48,790 nucleotides of DNA, taken from assembly GCA_903951425.1 (NCBI GenBank), contig CAJBBX010000025.1:1-48790 (forward strand), read 5' to 3'. The notes beneath the pieces were generated by a model. It had not been told where the DNA came from. It did no database searches and saw only the letters and a list, made by a program, of their open reading frames with translations. Below are positions 1,272 to 9,019 of the stretch, in pieces (within the stretch, counting starts at the first letter, position 1; each line of letters opens with the position of its first letter). The translations under genes and the position numbers were made by a program. Source of the DNA: an uncultured Chthonomonas sp. GTDB taxonomy: Bacteria; Armatimonadota; Chthonomonadetes; Chthonomonadales; CAJBBX01.

Positions 1272-4200
1272 CTAGTCGGGGTAGTGGCAGTGCTTGTACT
1301 TCTTCCCGCTGCCGCAGTGGCATGGGTCGTTGCGCCCAGGCCGCTTGCGGGGCGCCCTGGCCTGGGCTGGTGCGCGGGGTGCGCCGCCCTCTGCCTCAAC
1401 CTCCTCCTCCAGGTTGGTGAAGGTGTTGTACTGCTTCCTCCGCGGGGGTTGCTGCTCCTGCTGCACCTGGATCTGGAAGACGATCCGGGCGACCTCGTCC
1501 TGGATGCTATGCTGCATCGCCTCGAACATCTCGAAGGCTTCTTTGTTGTAGACGATCAGCGGATCCTGCTGGGCGTACCCGCGCAGGCTGATGCCCTCGC
1601 GCAGGTAGTCCATGTTGGCCAGATGCTCCATCCACTTCTGGTTGATCACGTTCAGGGCGACGTGCCGCTCCAGATCGCGCATGGCCTCGGGATTGCCGGT
1701 CACCTCGGTGACGTGCGCCTCCTTGGCCTCGTAGGCGGCCTCGACCAGCGCCACCAGCTCCTCCTCGAGGTCATCGCGCCGCTTGCCGCTGAGACCCTCC
1801 CTGGGCATCAGGTTTGAGATGCCGAAGAACTCGTCCAAACCCTTGTATAGCTCGTCCAGATCCCATTCCTGCCCGCTGTTGGCGTCGGGGCAGAACATAA
1901 CGACGGCCTCCGAGACGGTCTGGCGCATGTAGCCGAGCACGACGTCGCGCAGGTTGGCGCCCTGCAGAACCCGGCGGCGGTCGGTGTAGATGACCTCGCG
2001 CTGCTTGTTCATTACGTCGTCGTACTGCAGGACGTGCTTTCGGACTTCGAAGTGGTGCTCTTCGACCTTCTTCTGGGCGCGTTGGATCATCCTCGACAGG
2101 ATGCCCGCGTCCATCATCTGGTCTTCGGGCCAGGCGCGGAGCCATGGGTGCTGCGTCCGTTCGCCGAAGAGGCGCCAGAGCTCGTCTTCCAGCGAGACGA
2201 AGAAGCGGCTCTCGCCGGGGTCGCCCTGGCGGCCCGCTCGTCCCCGGAGTTGGTTGTCGATGCGGCGGCTCTCGTGGCGCTCCGTGCCCAGGATGAAGAG
2301 GCCGCCGACGGTGCGGACCTCCTCGGCGGCCCGCTCGTGCTCCTCGGGCGTCAGGGTGGTCACAGAGTCAAGGACGCTGTGCTTGCCGCCACGACGGTAG
2401 CTCAGGACCACCTCCGCGACCGGCGCTTCCTCGCCTTCGGCCAGCTCGCTGCCATCCACGAGATCGGCGGCGACCCCTACCGATGCCGGCTCCTCCTCGA
2501 CCTCAACCTCGTGCGGCCGGCCGCCAAGGATGATGTCGACGCCTCGGCCGGCCATGTTGGTGGCAATGGTGATGCCGCCCTTCCGGCCGGTCTCGGCGAT
2601 GATGATGGCTTCCTTCTCGTGGTACTTCGCGTTCAGGATGTTGTGCGGGATGCCGTGCCGCAGCGCCTCGTCGATGTTGTTCAGCACCTCGTCGTCGGCG
2701 GGAAGCTCCAGCAGCTTGGCCAGCTCCTGCAGGCTCTGCTCCGACATGGGATCCGGATCGACGCCAAGTCCGCTGGCGATCGGCGCCAGGCCGCGTAGGG
2801 TCTGCTCATCAAGGTTGACGTTGAGCGCCTTGTCCCAAGCCTCTCGCGTCGGCTTGTCGATCTTGGCGGCCTCGAACCGCGAGCGGCATAGCGAGATGAC
2901 GGCCAGCACCTGAAGCTTGTTGTCGGTGATGCGCAGCGATACCTTCTCCGATATCTCGATGGAGCGCGTACCGACCAGGACGGGTTGCTGCTTGGCGTAG
3001 AGCCTCAGGATTTCGGCGGCGATGCCGCGGAACTTGTGCTCAGCGGCCTTGTAGATGATGTCGGGCTGGTCCTTGCGGACCATGGGTCGGTTCGTCGGGA
3101 CCACGACCACATCCAGTCCGTAGATCTTGCGGAACTCGTCTTCCTCGGTCTTGGCCGTTCCCGTCATGCCCGCGAGCTTTAGGTAGAGGCGGAAGAGGTT
3201 CTGGAAGGTGATCGTCGCCAGTGTCTGCGACTCGTGCTTGATCTCGACGCCTTCCTTAGCTTCGATGCTCTGGTGGAGGCCGTCGGAGTAACGCCGGCCG
3301 AACATGAGGCGGCCCGTGAACTCATCGACGATGATGATCTCGCCGTCCTTGACGACGTAGTCGATGTCCTTCTTGAACAGCGCGTGCGCCTTCATGGCCG
3401 CGGTCACGTAGTGCATGGACTCCGGGTCCTCGGAGAGGTTCCGGATGCCCAGCATGTTCTCCATGCGTGTGATGCCGTTTTCGGTAGGCGATACGGTCTT
3501 CTGCTTCTCGTCGACCAGGTAGTGGAAGTCGGGATTGTTGCGGTCGTGGTCCGGGTCGTCGCGCTCCTGCTGGGTCTTGGCGTCCTTGCCCGCCCGCAGC
3601 GTTCGAACCACGCGGTCCACCTTGTAGTACATGCTCGTGTCCTGGTCCACGAAGCCGGAGATGATTAGCGGCGTTCGGGCTTCGTCGATCAGGATGCTGT
3701 CTACTTCGTCGACAATGGCGTAGTGCAGTTCGCGCATCACCAGTTCGTCGGCGCTAAAGGCCATGTTGTCGCGCAGGTAGTCGAACCCGAACTCGTTGTT
3801 CGTGCCGTAGGTCACGTCGCAGGCGTAGGCCTCGCGGCGAGAGATGGGCCGTGTGAACGTGAAGCGCGGGTCCGGGTCCTCGTAGGTCGGGTCGTAGATG
3901 TACGAGCCGCCCTCGTCGCCGGTCTCGGGGCTTTGGCCCTGAATGATGCCCACCGTCATGCCGAGCAGCTCGTAGACGGGGCCCATCCAGACGGCGCCGA
4001 CCTTGGAAAGGTAGTCGTTGGCGGTCACCAGGTGGGCGCCCTTACCGGCTAGGGCGTTCAGGTAGAGCGGCAGCGTGGCCATGAGGGTCTTGCCCTCACC
4101 GGTCTTCAGCTCGGCAATACGGCCATCGTGCGTGACCATGCCGCCGATGAGCTGAACGTCGTAGTGGCGCTGGCCCAGCGTTCTGCGGGCCGCCTCGCGG

Positions 4201-4487
4201 ACCACGGCAAAGGCCTCAGGCAGGATCTCGTCCAGCACGTTGTCGAGGGCCTCGCGCACCTTCTGCTTGCGCTCGGACTCCAGCACGCCGTCGCGATCCA
4301 GCGCTGCAACTAGGGCGGGCCACTCGGTCTGGACGCGCTGCCTGAACTCATCCGTCTTGGCGCGGAGCTGGGCATTGCTCATGGCGGTGAACTGCGGCTC
4401 AAGGGAGCTGACGCGTTCAGCGGCCTTCCGGTACTTAGCCACGTCCCGCTCATTACCATCCATCAATCGGCGTAGGAATGCCACCAT
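1272..4487 (-). CDS. secA: Preprotein translocase ATPase SecA, long form
   Basis: SecA is the cytoplasmic motor that drives unfolded preproteins through SecYEG. Visible motifs are Walker A TGEGKT (129-134), the DEAD-type box with VDEVDSILIDEAR (259-271), the TNMAGRG motif (643-649), the RGRAGRQGD segment, and a C-terminal zinc finger CHCGSGKKYKHCH that in other bacteria binds SecB or ribosomes. At 1071 residues it is clearly longer than the usual 830-930. Extra sequence lies at about 184-217 in NBD1 and at about 518-608 in NBD2, before the conserved GIPHNILNAK stretch. A further acidic loop follows DIILGG near 660-710. The ATG at 4487 gives the normal N-terminus. The gene is transcribed divergently from rodA. 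Confidence 0.97.
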   Translation of the reverse strand: MVAFLRRLMDGNERDVAKYRKAAERVSSLEPQFTAMSNAQLRAKTDEFRQRVQTEWPALVAALDRDGVLESERKQKVREALDNVLDEILPEAFAVVREAARRTLGQRHYDVQLIGGMVTHDGRIAELKTGEGKTLMATLPLYLNALAGKGAHLVTANDYLSKVGAVWMGPVYELLGMTVGIIQGQSPETGDEGGSYIYDPTYEDPDPRFTFTRPISRREAYACDVTYGTNNEFGFDYLRDNMAFSADELVMRELHYAIVDEVDSILIDEARTPLIISGFVDQDTSMYYKVDRVVRTLRAGKDAKTQQERDDPDHDRNNPDFHYLVDEKQKTVSPTENGITRMENMLGIRNLSEDPESMHYVTAAMKAHALFKKDIDYVVKDGEIIIVDEFTGRLMFGRRYSDGLHQSIEAKEGVEIKHESQTLATITFQNLFRLYLKLAGMTGTAKTEEDEFRKIYGLDVVVVPTNRPMVRKDQPDIIYKAAEHKFRGIAAEILRLYAKQQPVLVGTRSIEISEKVSLRITDNKLQVLAVISLCRSRFEAAKIDKPTREAWDKALNVNLDEQTLRGLAPIASGLGVDPDPMSEQSLQELAKLLELPADDEVLNNIDEALRHGIPHNILNAKYHEKEAIIIAETGRKGGITIATNMAGRGVDIILGGRPHEVEVEEEPASVGVAADLVDGSELAEGEEAPVAEVVLSYRRGGKHSVLDSVTTLTPEEHERAAEEVRTVGGLFILGTERHESRRIDNQLRGRAGRQGDPGESRFFVSLEDELWRLFGERTQHPWLRAWPEDQMMDAGILSRMIQRAQKKVEEHHFEVRKHVLQYDDVMNKQREVIYTDRRRVLQGANLRDVVLGYMRQTVSEAVVMFCPDANSGQEWDLDELYKGLDEFFGISNLMPREGLSGKRRDDLEEELVALVEAAYEAKEAHVTEVTGNPEAMRDLERHVALNVINQKWMEHLANMDYLREGISLRGYAQQDPLIVYNKEAFEMFEAMQHSIQDEVARIVFQIQVQQEQQPPRRKQYNTFTNLEEEVEAEGGAPRAPAQARAPRKRPGRNDPCHCGSGKKYKHCHYPD

Positions 4488-4724
4488 AGCTTCGATCCCA
4501 GGTCCTTAGGTGAGGAGTTGGCGCCACACTCGCTGGTCGGGCGCGCCACTTACAGCACGAGCCGCCACGCACCCCGAGGGAGCGGACTGGCGGCTCAAGT
4601 ACCGCGTAGTATACCACCCGGTATATACGCAGGATCGGGGGCCGCGGGTGCAGCCCGCGCCGTATTGGGTATCCTGCGGCAGACGGTGGGACGCTCGGCA
4701 AGGCCGGCGGGAGGGGCGGTTCGC
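4488..4724. promoter_or_regulatory. Divergent secA/rodA intergenic region with AT-rich palindrome
   Basis: This 237-base gap between divergent secA and rodA must hold both promoters. The only AT-rich patch in a GC-rich background is at 4608-4628. It contains the inverted repeat TATACC-ACCC-GGTATA (4610-4625). Read on the minus strand, TATACT (4613-4608) is a fair -10 element for secA. No matching -35 is obvious on either strand. No RNA gene is recognisable in the gap. Confidence 0.4.
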
Positions 4725-5825
4725 TTGGCTATCGCAATTCGAGTACGGAAGGGCGCCGATCCGCTGCTGCTGGGCAGCTGCCTCGGCCTAATGCTCATCG
4801 GGCTGACCTGCCTGGTGAGCGTCTCCGTGCCGGGAGCGCCTCCCTACGTTCAGAAGCAGGTCGCGTGGGCCCTGCTGGGCCTGCCCGTGTTCGCGGCGAT
4901 GGCACTGACGGACCCGGCGCGGCTCGCCAACTGGGCGAAGGCGATCTACATCGCGAACATCGGCCTGCTTCTCGCCGTCGCCGTGGCGGGGAAGGGGGCA
5001 AAGGGTGCGGTCCGCTGGATCATGATCGGCGGCTTCCAGTTCCAGCCCTCCGAGTTCTCCAAGCTGGCTATCATCATCTGCCTCGCCGCATGGCTAGCCG
5101 CAAACCGGGACCAGATTCATCGCGGCCGCGTGTTCGTGAAGTCCTTGTGGCTTGTGCTGCCGCCGATCCTGCTGGTGATGAAGCAGCCCGACCTCGGGAC
5201 CGGGCTGGTGACGCTCTTCGTCTGGGCGGGAATGACCTTCATCGCCGGCGCCCGGCTCCGGCACTTCGCCTATCTGACGCTTGCGGGTCTGGCCATCTTC
5301 GCGCTGATGTGGCGTATCAATGTGCTCCTGCCGTATCAGAAGCACCGAATCATGACCTTCATCGCCCCGCAGTCGGACCCCAAGGAGAAGGGCTACCACG
5401 TCATCCAGTCGCGCATTGCCGTGGGGTCCGGCGAGCTTTTCGGGAAGGGGCTACGCAAAGGCACGCAGGTCCACGGCCGGTTCATCCCCGAGAGCCAGAC
5501 CGACTTCGTGTTCACGGTGATCGCTGAGGAGGGGGGATTCGTCGCGTCGGTGCTGGTGGTCTGCCTCTTCGGCATGGCTCTGTGGCGCATCACGAGGATC
5601 GCGGAGATGTCCGAGGAGCCGCTCCACCGGCTGATGGCTTCGGGCATCTGGACCATGCTGCTGGTGCACATGACCGTCAATATAGGCATGACTCTCGGCA
5701 TCATGCCCGTGGCCGGAGTGCCTCTGCCGTTCGTCTCCTACGGGGGGACTGCGCTGGTGCTGAACCTCGGAAGCCTCGGCCTCCTGACGGGCATCTCCAC
5801 CCATCGAGATCCCCTTGTCTTCTGA
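4725..5825 (+). CDS. rodA: RodA-type SEDS peptidoglycan polymerase
   Basis: This polytopic SEDS-family membrane protein polymerises lipid II glycan strands for cell elongation, working with a class B PBP that is not in this window. RodA rather than FtsW is indicated by KQPDLGTGL, FQPSEFSKLA, PYQKHRIMTF, the IPESQTDFVFTVIAEEGG loop and the signature GVPLPFVSYGG near the C-terminus. About ten hydrophobic segments are present. I chose the TTG at 4725 (366 aa) because GGGAGGGG at 4708-4716 is a good ribosome binding site. The more upstream in-frame start at 4518 would add about 69 low-complexity residues not seen in the family. The 3' end overlaps the next gene by 11 bases if that gene starts at 5815. 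Confidence 0.9.
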   Translation: MAIAIRVRKGADPLLLGSCLGLMLIGLTCLVSVSVPGAPPYVQKQVAWALLGLPVFAAMALTDPARLANWAKAIYIANIGLLLAVAVAGKGAKGAVRWIMIGGFQFQPSEFSKLAIIICLAAWLAANRDQIHRGRVFVKSLWLVLPPILLVMKQPDLGTGLVTLFVWAGMTFIAGARLRHFAYLTLAGLAIFALMWRINVLLPYQKHRIMTFIAPQSDPKEKGYHVIQSRIAVGSGELFGKGLRKGTQVHGRFIPESQTDFVFTVIAEEGGFVASVLVVCLFGMALWRITRIAEMSEEPLHRLMASGIWTMLLVHMTVNIGMTLGIMPVAGVPLPFVSYGGTALVLNLGSLGLLTGISTHRDPLVF

Positions 5826-8313
5826 GCGGCAGAGACGACGCGGCCGCGAGGCAGGCGGGGCGCGGCCCCTCGATCGCCTGGAGGTGATCAGGGCGCTCCG
5901 GATCTCGAACTGGGAGGCTGTCTTCGCCACTGTCCACGCGGCGATCACCGGCGGCGCCATTCAGACGGGGTTCGCCGTCTACCTGAACGCCAGCAACATG
6001 GCCATGGGTGTTCTTGGCTCGATACCCACGTTCACAGCGCTGGTGCAGCTGATCTCCTCCGTCTTCGTGCAGGCATTGCCCGAGCGGCGCTCCTTCACTG
6101 CGTGGTTCTCGCTTGCGGCGCGCCTACTGTGGGTGCCCATTATGCTGGTGCCGTTGACGCTGCCGCCCGGGGTCAGGCTTCCGGCTTTCATCGTCCTTTT
6201 TGCTATTTCCGGCATCCTGATCCAAGTTCCCGTGCCGGCGTTCACCTCGTGGCTGTCCGACCTGGTGCCGCCCGACCATCGCGGCAGGTACTTTGGCCGC
6301 CGCAACATGCTGGCGGGCCTCACCGTGGTCGTGGTCTCGCTGCCTGCGGGTTGGTTCCTCGACCTGGCGGTGAAATCGCATGCCATGCCGGAGCCCGTGG
6401 CCTTCTGCGTCCTCTTCGGCGTTGCCGCCCTGTTCGGCTTCTTCAGCTTCCTCTGCCTCCTCCGCCAGCCCGAGCCGCCCATGGTGACCGCGGCGTCCTC
6501 TTTCAGCGGACTGGGCGGGTTGCTGCAGCAGTATCGTGCGCCGCTGACCGACAAGGCGTTCCGGCGCTTCCTGGCCTTCTCGGGCGTGTTCGCCGTAGGG
6601 CAGTTCGTGGCCGGGCCTTTCTACACTGTATACGCCATTAAGAGCCTCCACCTGAACTTCCTATGGCTCCAAGGCCTGGGCTCGCTGGCGAGCCTGGCGG
6701 GCTTGCTCGCCATGCCGCTCTGGGGATACCTCTCCGACAAGTTCGGCAACAAGCCAATCCTCGTGATCTCGGTTTTCGGCGTGGCGGTGCTGCCGTTGGG
6801 ATGGGTGCCCTGCGTGGCCTCGCAACCGACGCTGACGATAGCGCTGCTGACCATTAACCACCTGGCGGGCGGCCTCTTTTGGGCCGGCGTCGGCCTCACG
6901 CAGTTCAACATTCTGATCGCCGACACGCCCAATGACAAGCGGCCCGTCTACGTGGGGGCCATGTCGGCCTTCACCGGCGCCCTGGGCGGCCTGTCGCCGA
7001 TCCTGGGCGGAGTGCTGCTCTCGGCGCTGGGCGATGTGCGACTGCAAATGGCGGGCCTCACGTTGGGCTCATTCCAGATTCTCTTCATCATTAACAGCCT
7101 GATCCGCTTCGGATCGCTGGGCATGATGCGTGGGCTGGGGCGCGGTAACGAGGCGTCGCCGAAGGAGGTGCTGCAGCAGCTCGGCGGTATCCGGATGGGC
7201 GCCATGGTGAACATGCGCCGCCTCCAGCGGTCGCGAACGGTGGAGGCCCGGTCACAGGCTGCGGAGGCGCTGGGTACAAGCAAGACCGCCCTGGCGGTGG
7301 ACGACCTCGTCGCGGCCCTGATGGATCCCAGCCGCCGGGTCCGGGCTGACGCCGCCGCCGCGCTGGGCGGGATCGGCGACCCGCGCGCAGTGACCGCACT
7401 CATGGCCACGGTAGATGATCCCGGCTCAGGCATCCAGCAGGACGCTTGCCGGGCACTGGGGCATATCGGCGACGCCGCATCCGCGGAGACGCTGGCGAGG
7501 GCCTACGCATTGCCTGATCCTCGCGTTCGCCTAGCTGCCGTGGAGGCCCTTGGAGCTGTCGGAGGGCCGGTCGCCGCCACGGTGGTGTCCGATGCTGCCG
7601 CTACGGGCCTTGAGACGGGTGACGCAGCCCTGGCTGTGGCGGCCCTCCGCGCTGGTGAGCGGCTGGGCGCCCTTCCGCCGGACCTGGTGGCCCGCGCCGC
7701 CGAAAGCGCCCAGCCTGCGGTCCGCCGCGCCGCCGCCGCAACGGCGGGCCAGGTAGGTCATCGCGAGCTCGTGGAGGCGCTGGTAGGGCGGCTCGCCGCG
7801 GAACCCGACCCCGCGGCGCAGGCGGAGGTGGCCTGCGCGGCCGCTGCACTCAGCATATGTTCGGCGTTGCCTGCCATCGTGGCTGCTGCGCTACGCTGCC
7901 CGTCGCCGATCGCGCGTCGGCAACTGGTGTTCGCCGCGGCGCAACTCGCCGGGGTCGGTGACGAGGCATACAGGGCGGTGATGGCCCATGCCATGGAGCG
8001 CGACCAACTGCTGGAGCGGACATTGGCCGATGTCGGACGCATGGCTGAGCAACTGCTGGGCGTACCGGCCGCCCGTCGCACCGAAGTGCTCTGCCGGCGC
8101 GCCGTGCAGCGCTACGCCGCCGGCGACATGGGGGACGCGGTCCGGAACCTGGCTCGCGTCGTGGCCACGGTCCGTGCGGCAGCCGTTGACAGCACGTCCG
8201 GCGAACTGGCGCAGCAGATGGGGCTGATCGAGGAGCCGGCCGATACGCCGCAGGAGCTCTTTGTCGTTGCCGCACTGGCCGTGAAGCAGTGGCTTACCCC
8301 TCCCCGAGGCTGA
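5815..8313 (+). CDS. MFS transporter fused to C-terminal HEAT-like repeats
   Basis: This 832-residue protein has two parts. Residues about 30-445 are a major facilitator-type membrane domain with around 11-12 hydrophobic helices. Between them is the loop PPDHRGRYFGRRN, which resembles the MFS cytoplasmic A-motif. From about residue 475 to at least 700 the sequence turns into alpha-helical HEAT/PBS-lyase-like repeats such as DPSRRVRADAAAALGGIGDP and DPRVRLAAVEALGAVG, followed by a helical tail to 832. The substrate cannot be read from the sequence. The repeat domain should lie in the cytoplasm and act as a protein-protein scaffold or regulatory arm. The TTG at 5815 is the earliest start; a GTG at 5884 is possible. 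The overlap with rodA suggests co-transcription. Confidence 0.85.
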   Translation: MSSERQRRRGREAGGARPLDRLEVIRALRISNWEAVFATVHAAITGGAIQTGFAVYLNASNMAMGVLGSIPTFTALVQLISSVFVQALPERRSFTAWFSLAARLLWVPIMLVPLTLPPGVRLPAFIVLFAISGILIQVPVPAFTSWLSDLVPPDHRGRYFGRRNMLAGLTVVVVSLPAGWFLDLAVKSHAMPEPVAFCVLFGVAALFGFFSFLCLLRQPEPPMVTAASSFSGLGGLLQQYRAPLTDKAFRRFLAFSGVFAVGQFVAGPFYTVYAIKSLHLNFLWLQGLGSLASLAGLLAMPLWGYLSDKFGNKPILVISVFGVAVLPLGWVPCVASQPTLTIALLTINHLAGGLFWAGVGLTQFNILIADTPNDKRPVYVGAMSAFTGALGGLSPILGGVLLSALGDVRLQMAGLTLGSFQILFIINSLIRFGSLGMMRGLGRGNEASPKEVLQQLGGIRMGAMVNMRRLQRSRTVEARSQAAEALGTSKTALAVDDLVAALMDPSRRVRADAAAALGGIGDPRAVTALMATVDDPGSGIQQDACRALGHIGDAASAETLARAYALPDPRVRLAAVEALGAVGGPVAATVVSDAAATGLETGDAALAVAALRAGERLGALPPDLVARAAESAQPAVRRAAAATAGQVGHRELVEALVGRLAAEPDPAAQAEVACAAAALSICSALPAIVAAALRCPSPIARRQLVFAAAQLAGVGDEAYRAVMAHAMERDQLLERTLADVGRMAEQLLGVPAARRTEVLCRRAVQRYAAGDMGDAVRNLARVVATVRAAAVDSTSGELAQQMGLIEEPADTPQELFVVAALAVKQWLTPPRG

Positions 8314-8317
8314 GAGC

Positions 8318-8346
8318 TTGACAGCCGGCTTGCAGTAAGCCATAGT
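8318..8346 (+). promoter_or_regulatory. Sigma-70-type promoter for the HNH-repeat gene
   Basis: A perfect -35 element TTGACA (8318-8323) is followed by exactly 17 bases and then CATAGT (8341-8346), which matches four of six bases of the -10 consensus. Transcription would begin near 8353. The 52-base leader ends at the TTG start at 8405. This is the clearest housekeeping-type promoter in the window. It rules out the in-frame GTG at 8345 as the start. Confidence 0.65.
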
Positions 8347-8404
8347 GTCACCAAGCTGCGGCCATTGGTGGCCGGGCCCGCAAAACACGGGAGGTACTGC
8401 GCGC

Positions 8405-9019
8405 TTGGCGAAGTGGACATGCGAGGCCATCACGGCCAGGATTCGGGAGTTGGACGCCGCCGGTGTGGCGATCAGCTACACAGGCGTTGCGAAGGCGGAC
8501 CTTGCCCTGCTGCGTGCCGCCACGCGGCGACACGGCTCCTGGCGAGCCGCTGTCGAGGAAGCAGGCTTCGACTACGGGCAGGTGCGGGCCTACGACGAGT
8601 GGACCGATGAGCGGATCGTCGATCGCATACGTGAGTTGCATCGTCAGGGCGTTGACCTCTCCTGGCGCTATGTCAGCACCACGGCAGACCCCAGGCTGGC
8701 CGCCGCCGCCACGAAGGGCGCTCACTTCGGTTCGTGGCGGGCGGCGATCCGGGCTGCCGGTATAGAGTATTCCGTTGTGCGGCGGTATCGTCGCTGGGAT
8801 GAGAATGCCATCATCACTCAGTTGCGTCAGATGATGGCCGCCGGGGCGGAGCTCAACGCCAAGGCCGTCGAAACGGCTGATGTGGCCCTGATCACGGCCG
8901 CCCGGCGCCACTTCGGTTCATGGCAGGGAGCCCTGGCTGCGGCCGGCATCGAGTATGCCCGTGTCGCGCTACGGCGCCCGTATGCCCGCCGGGGTAGGGC
9001 CGCCGGTCAGGAGGCCTGA
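8405..9019 (+). CDS. Three tandem homing-endonuclease-associated (HNH_repeat-like) repeats, no nuclease domain
   Basis: The 204-residue product is almost entirely three imperfect repeats of about 55-60 residues, at about 4-60, 66-124 and 131-186. Each has the plan W..e.I...I..l...G, then L..AA, GSW..A, and finally AGI-Y. Examples are RHGSWRAAVEEAGFDY, HFGSWRAAIRAAGIEY and HFGSWQGALAAAGIEY. This pattern matches the HNH_repeat family, normally found beside HNH or LAGLIDADG homing nucleases as a probable DNA-reading module. No HNH, GIY-YIG or LAGLIDADG catalytic motif is present, so a DNA-binding role is inferred. The TTG at 8405 follows GGGAGGT (8389-8395) with a 9-base spacer and lies just downstream of a strong promoter. 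The basic C-terminal tail (RRPYARRGR) would suit nucleic acid binding. Confidence 0.75.
   Translation: MAKWTCEAITARIRELDAAGVAISYTGVAKADLALLRAATRRHGSWRAAVEEAGFDYGQVRAYDEWTDERIVDRIRELHRQGVDLSWRYVSTTADPRLAAAATKGAHFGSWRAAIRAAGIEYSVVRRYRRWDENAIITQLRQMMAAGAELNAKAVETADVALITAARRHFGSWQGALAAAGIEYARVALRRPYARRGRAAGQEA

Follow-up and report, generated by a model that had tools for sequence, protein, structure and literature searches.

An open reading frame in the genome of an uncultured Chthonomonas species raises the question of what a membrane carrier does with a long HEAT-repeat arm on its end, and whether its contact with the upstream gene, rodA, says anything about that function. The window, meaning the whole stretch of DNA analyzed (48,790 nucleotides), is one of the 188 contigs of this genome, which spans 6.08 Mb and is 100 percent complete. 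Those near relatives that carry a name belong to the Armatimonadetes; an uncultured Chthonomonas, at 92 percent identity, is the closest. Coordinates of the features are collected in Table 1.

Table 1. The fusion gene, its parts and the adjoining rodA gene; positions are those of the window.
Feature	Position	Strand	Basis and remarks
rodA	4518..5825	+	TIGR02210, 375.7 bits, cut-off 336.7; neighbor only, outside any conserved unit
MFS-HEAT fusion gene	5815..8313	+	832 aa; TTG start codon, start not certain
12-helix MFS domain, residues about 21-440	5875..7134	+	Pfam MFS_1, predicted model, fold match, positive-inside loops
Joint, residues 441-475	7135..7239	+	Low model confidence at 440-461; sequence conserved within Armatimonadota
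HEAT solenoid, residues 476-723, eight helix hairpins	7240..7983	+	Pfam HEAT_2, model, alphaRep match
C-terminal helical module, residues 724-832	7984..8310	+	Model and conservation; E814 inside, Y719 just before

The N-terminal part is recognized by Pfam MFS_1 (6.2e-29; 101.4 bits against a cut-off of 33.4) and the following part by HEAT_2 (3.9e-24 in three stretches; 85.2 bits against 27.7). Both scores bear out a preliminary description of this locus, which had read an MFS domain running into at least five HEAT repeats; eight hairpins are read in the predicted structure. The structure prediction proposed there, run with AlphaFold on an eight-row alignment, gave a full-length model (mean pLDDT 81.7, pTM 0.52) with 12 membrane helices, followed by a poorly predicted joint (residues 440-461) and a helical arm to the end; at this pTM the position of the arm relative to the membrane is only loosely placed.

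The predicted 12-helix fold is like that of the MFS carriers YegT, NupG, SotB, AmpG, G6PT and LacY. Fold comparison of the MFS part identifies YegT as the best match (Z score of 33.4, rmsd of 3.4, 387 aligned residues), with NupG, like YegT a nucleoside:H+ symporter, at a Z score of 32.1 and MCT10, SotB and AmpG at 30.9 to 31.1. Sequence identity is 11 to 14 percent to YegT and NupG and 10 to 17 percent to the fold-matched MFS carriers as a whole, and many families fall within a few Z units of one another, so that no substrate can be named from the fold; an NCBIfam search of the fusion protein named no specific carrier. Unlike the matched carriers, the protein has a HEAT arm that lies outside the alignment: among the fold matches listed, the aligned part stops near residue 500, and among the matches listed by Foldseek and VIA no chain spans both halves.

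The stretch GYLSDKFGNKP between helices 8 and 9 is motif-A-like. Lys and Arg number 19 per 115 residues in the predicted cytoplasmic loops versus 3 per 59 outside (loop borders set by hand), and this bias points to a cytoplasmic location of the C-terminal arm. Several polar residues of the membrane helices are conserved in a 35-row alignment (D183 in 35/35, Q78, Q363 and R431 each in 33/35, R103 in 30/35), in keeping with a functional carrier. In helix 1, 29 of the 35 Armatimonadota rows have an acid at residue 34, which, by analogy with MFS antiporters, is a possible proton site; in a wider alignment of 56 fused rows the position is E or D in 24 and A in 19, where misalignment is possible. 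In the same wider alignment Q363 is Q in 43/56 fused rows, whereas another residue is more frequent there among 27 unfused rows, and Q363 may possibly be a mark of the fused group.

The arm with its tail occupies residues 441-832, 392 residues, in agreement with the earlier estimate of about 390. It also matches Pfam HEAT_PBS (8e-07). Modeled alone, residues 462-832 gave a mean pLDDT of 93.5 and a pTM of 0.85, with 22 helices that we read as one lead-in helix, the eight HEAT hairpins and five end helices; the structural match is a designed alphaRep (PDB ID: 4zv6, Z score of 26.2, rmsd of 3.2, 273 residues). The repeat consensus and solenoid are shared with the HEAT/PBS-lyase repeat proteins NblB and CpcE/F and with designed alphaRep. 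Unlike NblB and CpcE, however, the protein scores far under the NCBIfam cut-offs for those families (49.1 bits against 300 and 32.1 against 330, respectively), and assignment as a bilin lyase was rejected. HEAT proteins are plentiful in this genome, with 40 HEAT_2 matches across about 16 open frames.

Conservation in the HEAT part is mostly that of the repeat consensus. Y719 is present in all 58 Armatimonadota fused proteins and in 21 of the 26 fused proteins from KSB1 and Verrucomicrobiota, which suggests a feature retained in the arm; E814 is E in 53/58 of the former and is not conserved in the latter. A profile of the end module, made from residues 691-832 alone, matched five fused KSB1 proteins at 3e-9 to 2e-7 and 13 (at E<1e-4) of the 21 fused proteins fetched from Verrucomicrobiota; it did not match the remaining eight at that level. 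Taken with Y719, these matches indicate a module common to several phyla, though not to every fused protein.

The homolog search that had been proposed for this architecture used a whole-protein profile of 35 rows. It matched 209 of 291 Armatimonadota genomes at E<=1e-60, mostly once in each, and among the 150 matches listed (148 genomes) all extend into HEAT and 149 begin at profile position 69 or earlier; weaker matches beyond these 150 include MFS-only proteins. Of the 31 genomes in the window's order, 29 match, with no profile match in G014 (64 percent complete) or G017 (95 percent). A search of relatives found some match at E<=0.001 in 61/61 genomes, the weak end of which consists of generic MFS or HEAT proteins. 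To judge by these sequences, the fusion is kept as one protein across Armatimonadota. No published description of it was found in the open-licence literature.

The architecture recurs, with a scattered distribution, in two further phyla. In KSB1, 22 of 82 genomes match at E<=1e-80, five with fused proteins (G339-G343) and the rest with MFS-only ones. Among Verrucomicrobiota, 54 of 240 genomes match at E<=1e-60, and 21 rows in 20 genomes continue into HEAT. All four matches among 249 genomes of the phylum of a proteobacterium, G293, are MFS-only, as are those in six plasmid records. MFS-only relatives of about 500 residues (L110, L111, L172, L173, L177-L179) occur in KSB1, Verrucomicrobiota and Pseudomonadota.

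Phylogenetic trees of the MFS part were built after removal of some rows: L072 (too short) and L004 (lacking an MFS match) before the first tree, from which L078 is also absent; L002, L042 and L098 (long branches) and near-copies before the second; the third followed longer thinning. The Armatimonadota fused proteins group together in an earlier tree (support 96), and in a wider tree two Armatimonadota rows, L081 and L083, fall outside the Armatimonadota fused group. Fused proteins of KSB1 and most of those of Verrucomicrobiota form a separate block. The labels fused and alone switch at least twice on the earlier tree and at least three times on the wider one; a constraint that keeps all fused rows in a single clade passed the AU test (p-AU 0.074, on the tree before Verrucomicrobiota were added).

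What, then, does the fused protein do? HEAT arms usually bind proteins, and for this reason we favor a secondary MFS carrier whose predicted cytoplasmic HEAT arm docks a partner protein, a reading that we consider probable. A paper on another carrier-HEAT family (PMC5381601) also states that they usually do. The MFS part would move a small solute; its C-terminus leads on to a HEAT solenoid, predicted to lie in the cytoplasm, that ends in a conserved helical module of its own; the arm would bind a cytosolic partner; and the bound partner may regulate the carrier or receive its substrate. Several points count against this reading, namely that a repeat consensus needs no partner, that the acid at residue 34 is variable, and that a transport-dead sensor would look alike. 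Such a sensor, or transceptor, whose MFS part would transport little or nothing but would sense a solute and use the HEAT arm for signaling, is the strongest rival, though an unlikely one: the large conserved cytoplasmic arm and the wide, mostly single-copy presence in Armatimonadota without shared gene neighbors would fit it, but the polar residues conserved in the membrane helices are more in keeping with a functional carrier, as are the MFS-only relatives, which have most general features in common with the fused proteins.

The other clue to function lay in rodA. The 11-base overlap in the preliminary description is confirmed (rodA stop ending at 5825, fusion TTG at 5815) provided that this TTG is the true start, which is uncertain because the first 16 residues of the protein are poorly conserved. 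The overlap recurs in two genomes of the same genus, and of the 12 genomes of family f1 seven have rodA directly upstream of the fusion (G000, which is the window's genome, and G001, G002, G004, G006, G009 and G011). In the other members it is about 3.9 kb off (G007) or on another contig (G003, G005, G008 and G010). Outside f1, RodA was found at none of the 55 fused loci (at seven of them the upstream DNA is shorter than 1.1 kb). A RodA match exists somewhere in the genome in 58 of 61 relatives; in one of them, G015, assembled as one contig of 3.44 Mb, the best match (2,130,590) and the fusion (1,631,682) are about 0.5 Mb apart. Being confined to f1, the rodA contact looks like family-level local gene order. 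A general functional link to RodA or SecA was rejected on these grounds, and the suggested role near the cell-elongation machinery finds no support. Upstream of the fusion gene, secA (1272-4487, minus strand) and rodA (plus strand) are arranged head to head, and G007 keeps this pair though its fusion gene lies further on.

Gene neighborhoods elsewhere are variable. A co-directional upstream neighbor within 60 bp is found at 30 of 62 fused loci, and its identity varies; when ORFs were clustered over 76 loci, no cluster apart from the fusion gene itself occurred in more than 7. Pfam names, drawn from 30 chosen neighbors, differ by locus and include VanW, PhyH, APH, WbsX, DAHP synthase, sulfatase, cyclase, Mur ligase, apiosidase, UvrB, deacetylase, PIN, amidase-like, M56, GNAT and ADH. 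A conserved operon partner was therefore rejected. Separate genes for the two halves, among unrelated neighbors, had been named as the finding that would speak against the proposal: the neighbors are indeed unrelated, yet as a rule the two halves form one protein, with MFS-only relatives existing as well. The next gene in the window (8345-9019, plus strand, 224 aa) encodes a product with three stretches that match HNH_repeat (6.7e-14), a repeat associated with homing endonucleases; Pfam lists no nuclease domain for it. In G002 and G007, too, this gene comes next after the fusion.

These neighborhoods bear on the earlier idea of lipid-linked precursor handling with the repeats as a docking platform, which we take to mean a flippase for envelope components or lipid precursors that would act together with RodA. 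The gene order within f1 and the 11-base overlap in the same genus could be cited for it, together with the lipid-moving MFS proteins MFSD2A and SPNS2 among the fold matches (beside many sugar and drug carriers) and an amidase-like gene adjoining the fusion at one f14 locus, but the absence of RodA from the loci outside f1, the distance between the two genes in G015 and the predominance of neighbors unrelated to the envelope make it improbable. MurJ is moreover present in the window's genome and in 47/47 good-quality genomes searched. A vacancy for a lipid II flippase was rejected, since the genome has a separate MurJ; the MurJ domain (PF03023) is not listed for the fusion protein. Of the docking-platform proposal, a transporter whose cytoplasmic HEAT arm could dock a partner is supported and the lipid-precursor context is unsupported.

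The closest published architecture is that of the NTT-HEAT and NTT-HEAT-cNBD fusions, described in PMC5381601 (2017) as widespread in bacteria and of unknown function as fusions. HEAT-transporter fusions, previously called uncommon, are so only in a relative sense given this published family. Both kinds of protein join a membrane carrier to a C-terminal HEAT region in one chain; they differ in that the carrier of NTT-HEAT is NTT/TLC (PF03219), whereas here it is a general MFS_1 domain, and in the further conserved C-terminal module of MFS-HEAT. The identical order of parts might suggest a relative of the NTT-HEAT nucleotide carriers, but PF03219 has no match in the fusion protein at E<=1 and none in the host genome; membership was rejected, and we regard such kinship as very improbable.

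That an assembly or frame artifact joined two genes is next to impossible: the gene appears as two adjacent ORFs of 625 and 190 aa in the relative G021 (L066:8333-10788), but 65 fetched loci carry a single frame continuing into HEAT, and dN/dS is low across all parts (about 0.04 for MFS, 0.07 for HEAT and 0.12 for residues 691-832, in one same-genus pair, G000 versus G002). The fusion gene is intact, under purifying selection and no chimera. In G021 the two ORFs lie in different frames and jointly match the whole protein; the split is likely a frameshift or sequencing error, because the congeners G016 and G028 keep one 818-aa frame there.

A large membrane protein kept by most Armatimonadota genomes, usually in one copy and without a conserved operon, likely has a general role, and its conserved arm offers a direct handle on that function through a putative binding partner. 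With this protein the carrier-HEAT fusion is found in ordinary MFS carriers besides the NTT family, so that the plan of a carrier joined to a docking solenoid is a recurrent one. More tentatively, we speculate that MFS-HEAT with its C-terminal module could be a carrier-scaffold family of ancient origin, present in nearly all genomes of much of Armatimonadota and either retained in or transferred to KSB1 and Verrucomicrobiota, whose solenoid would recruit one dedicated cytosolic enzyme and so couple transport directly to metabolism. If this is true, a phylum of which very few members have been studied would have a core device in the carrier-scaffold family.
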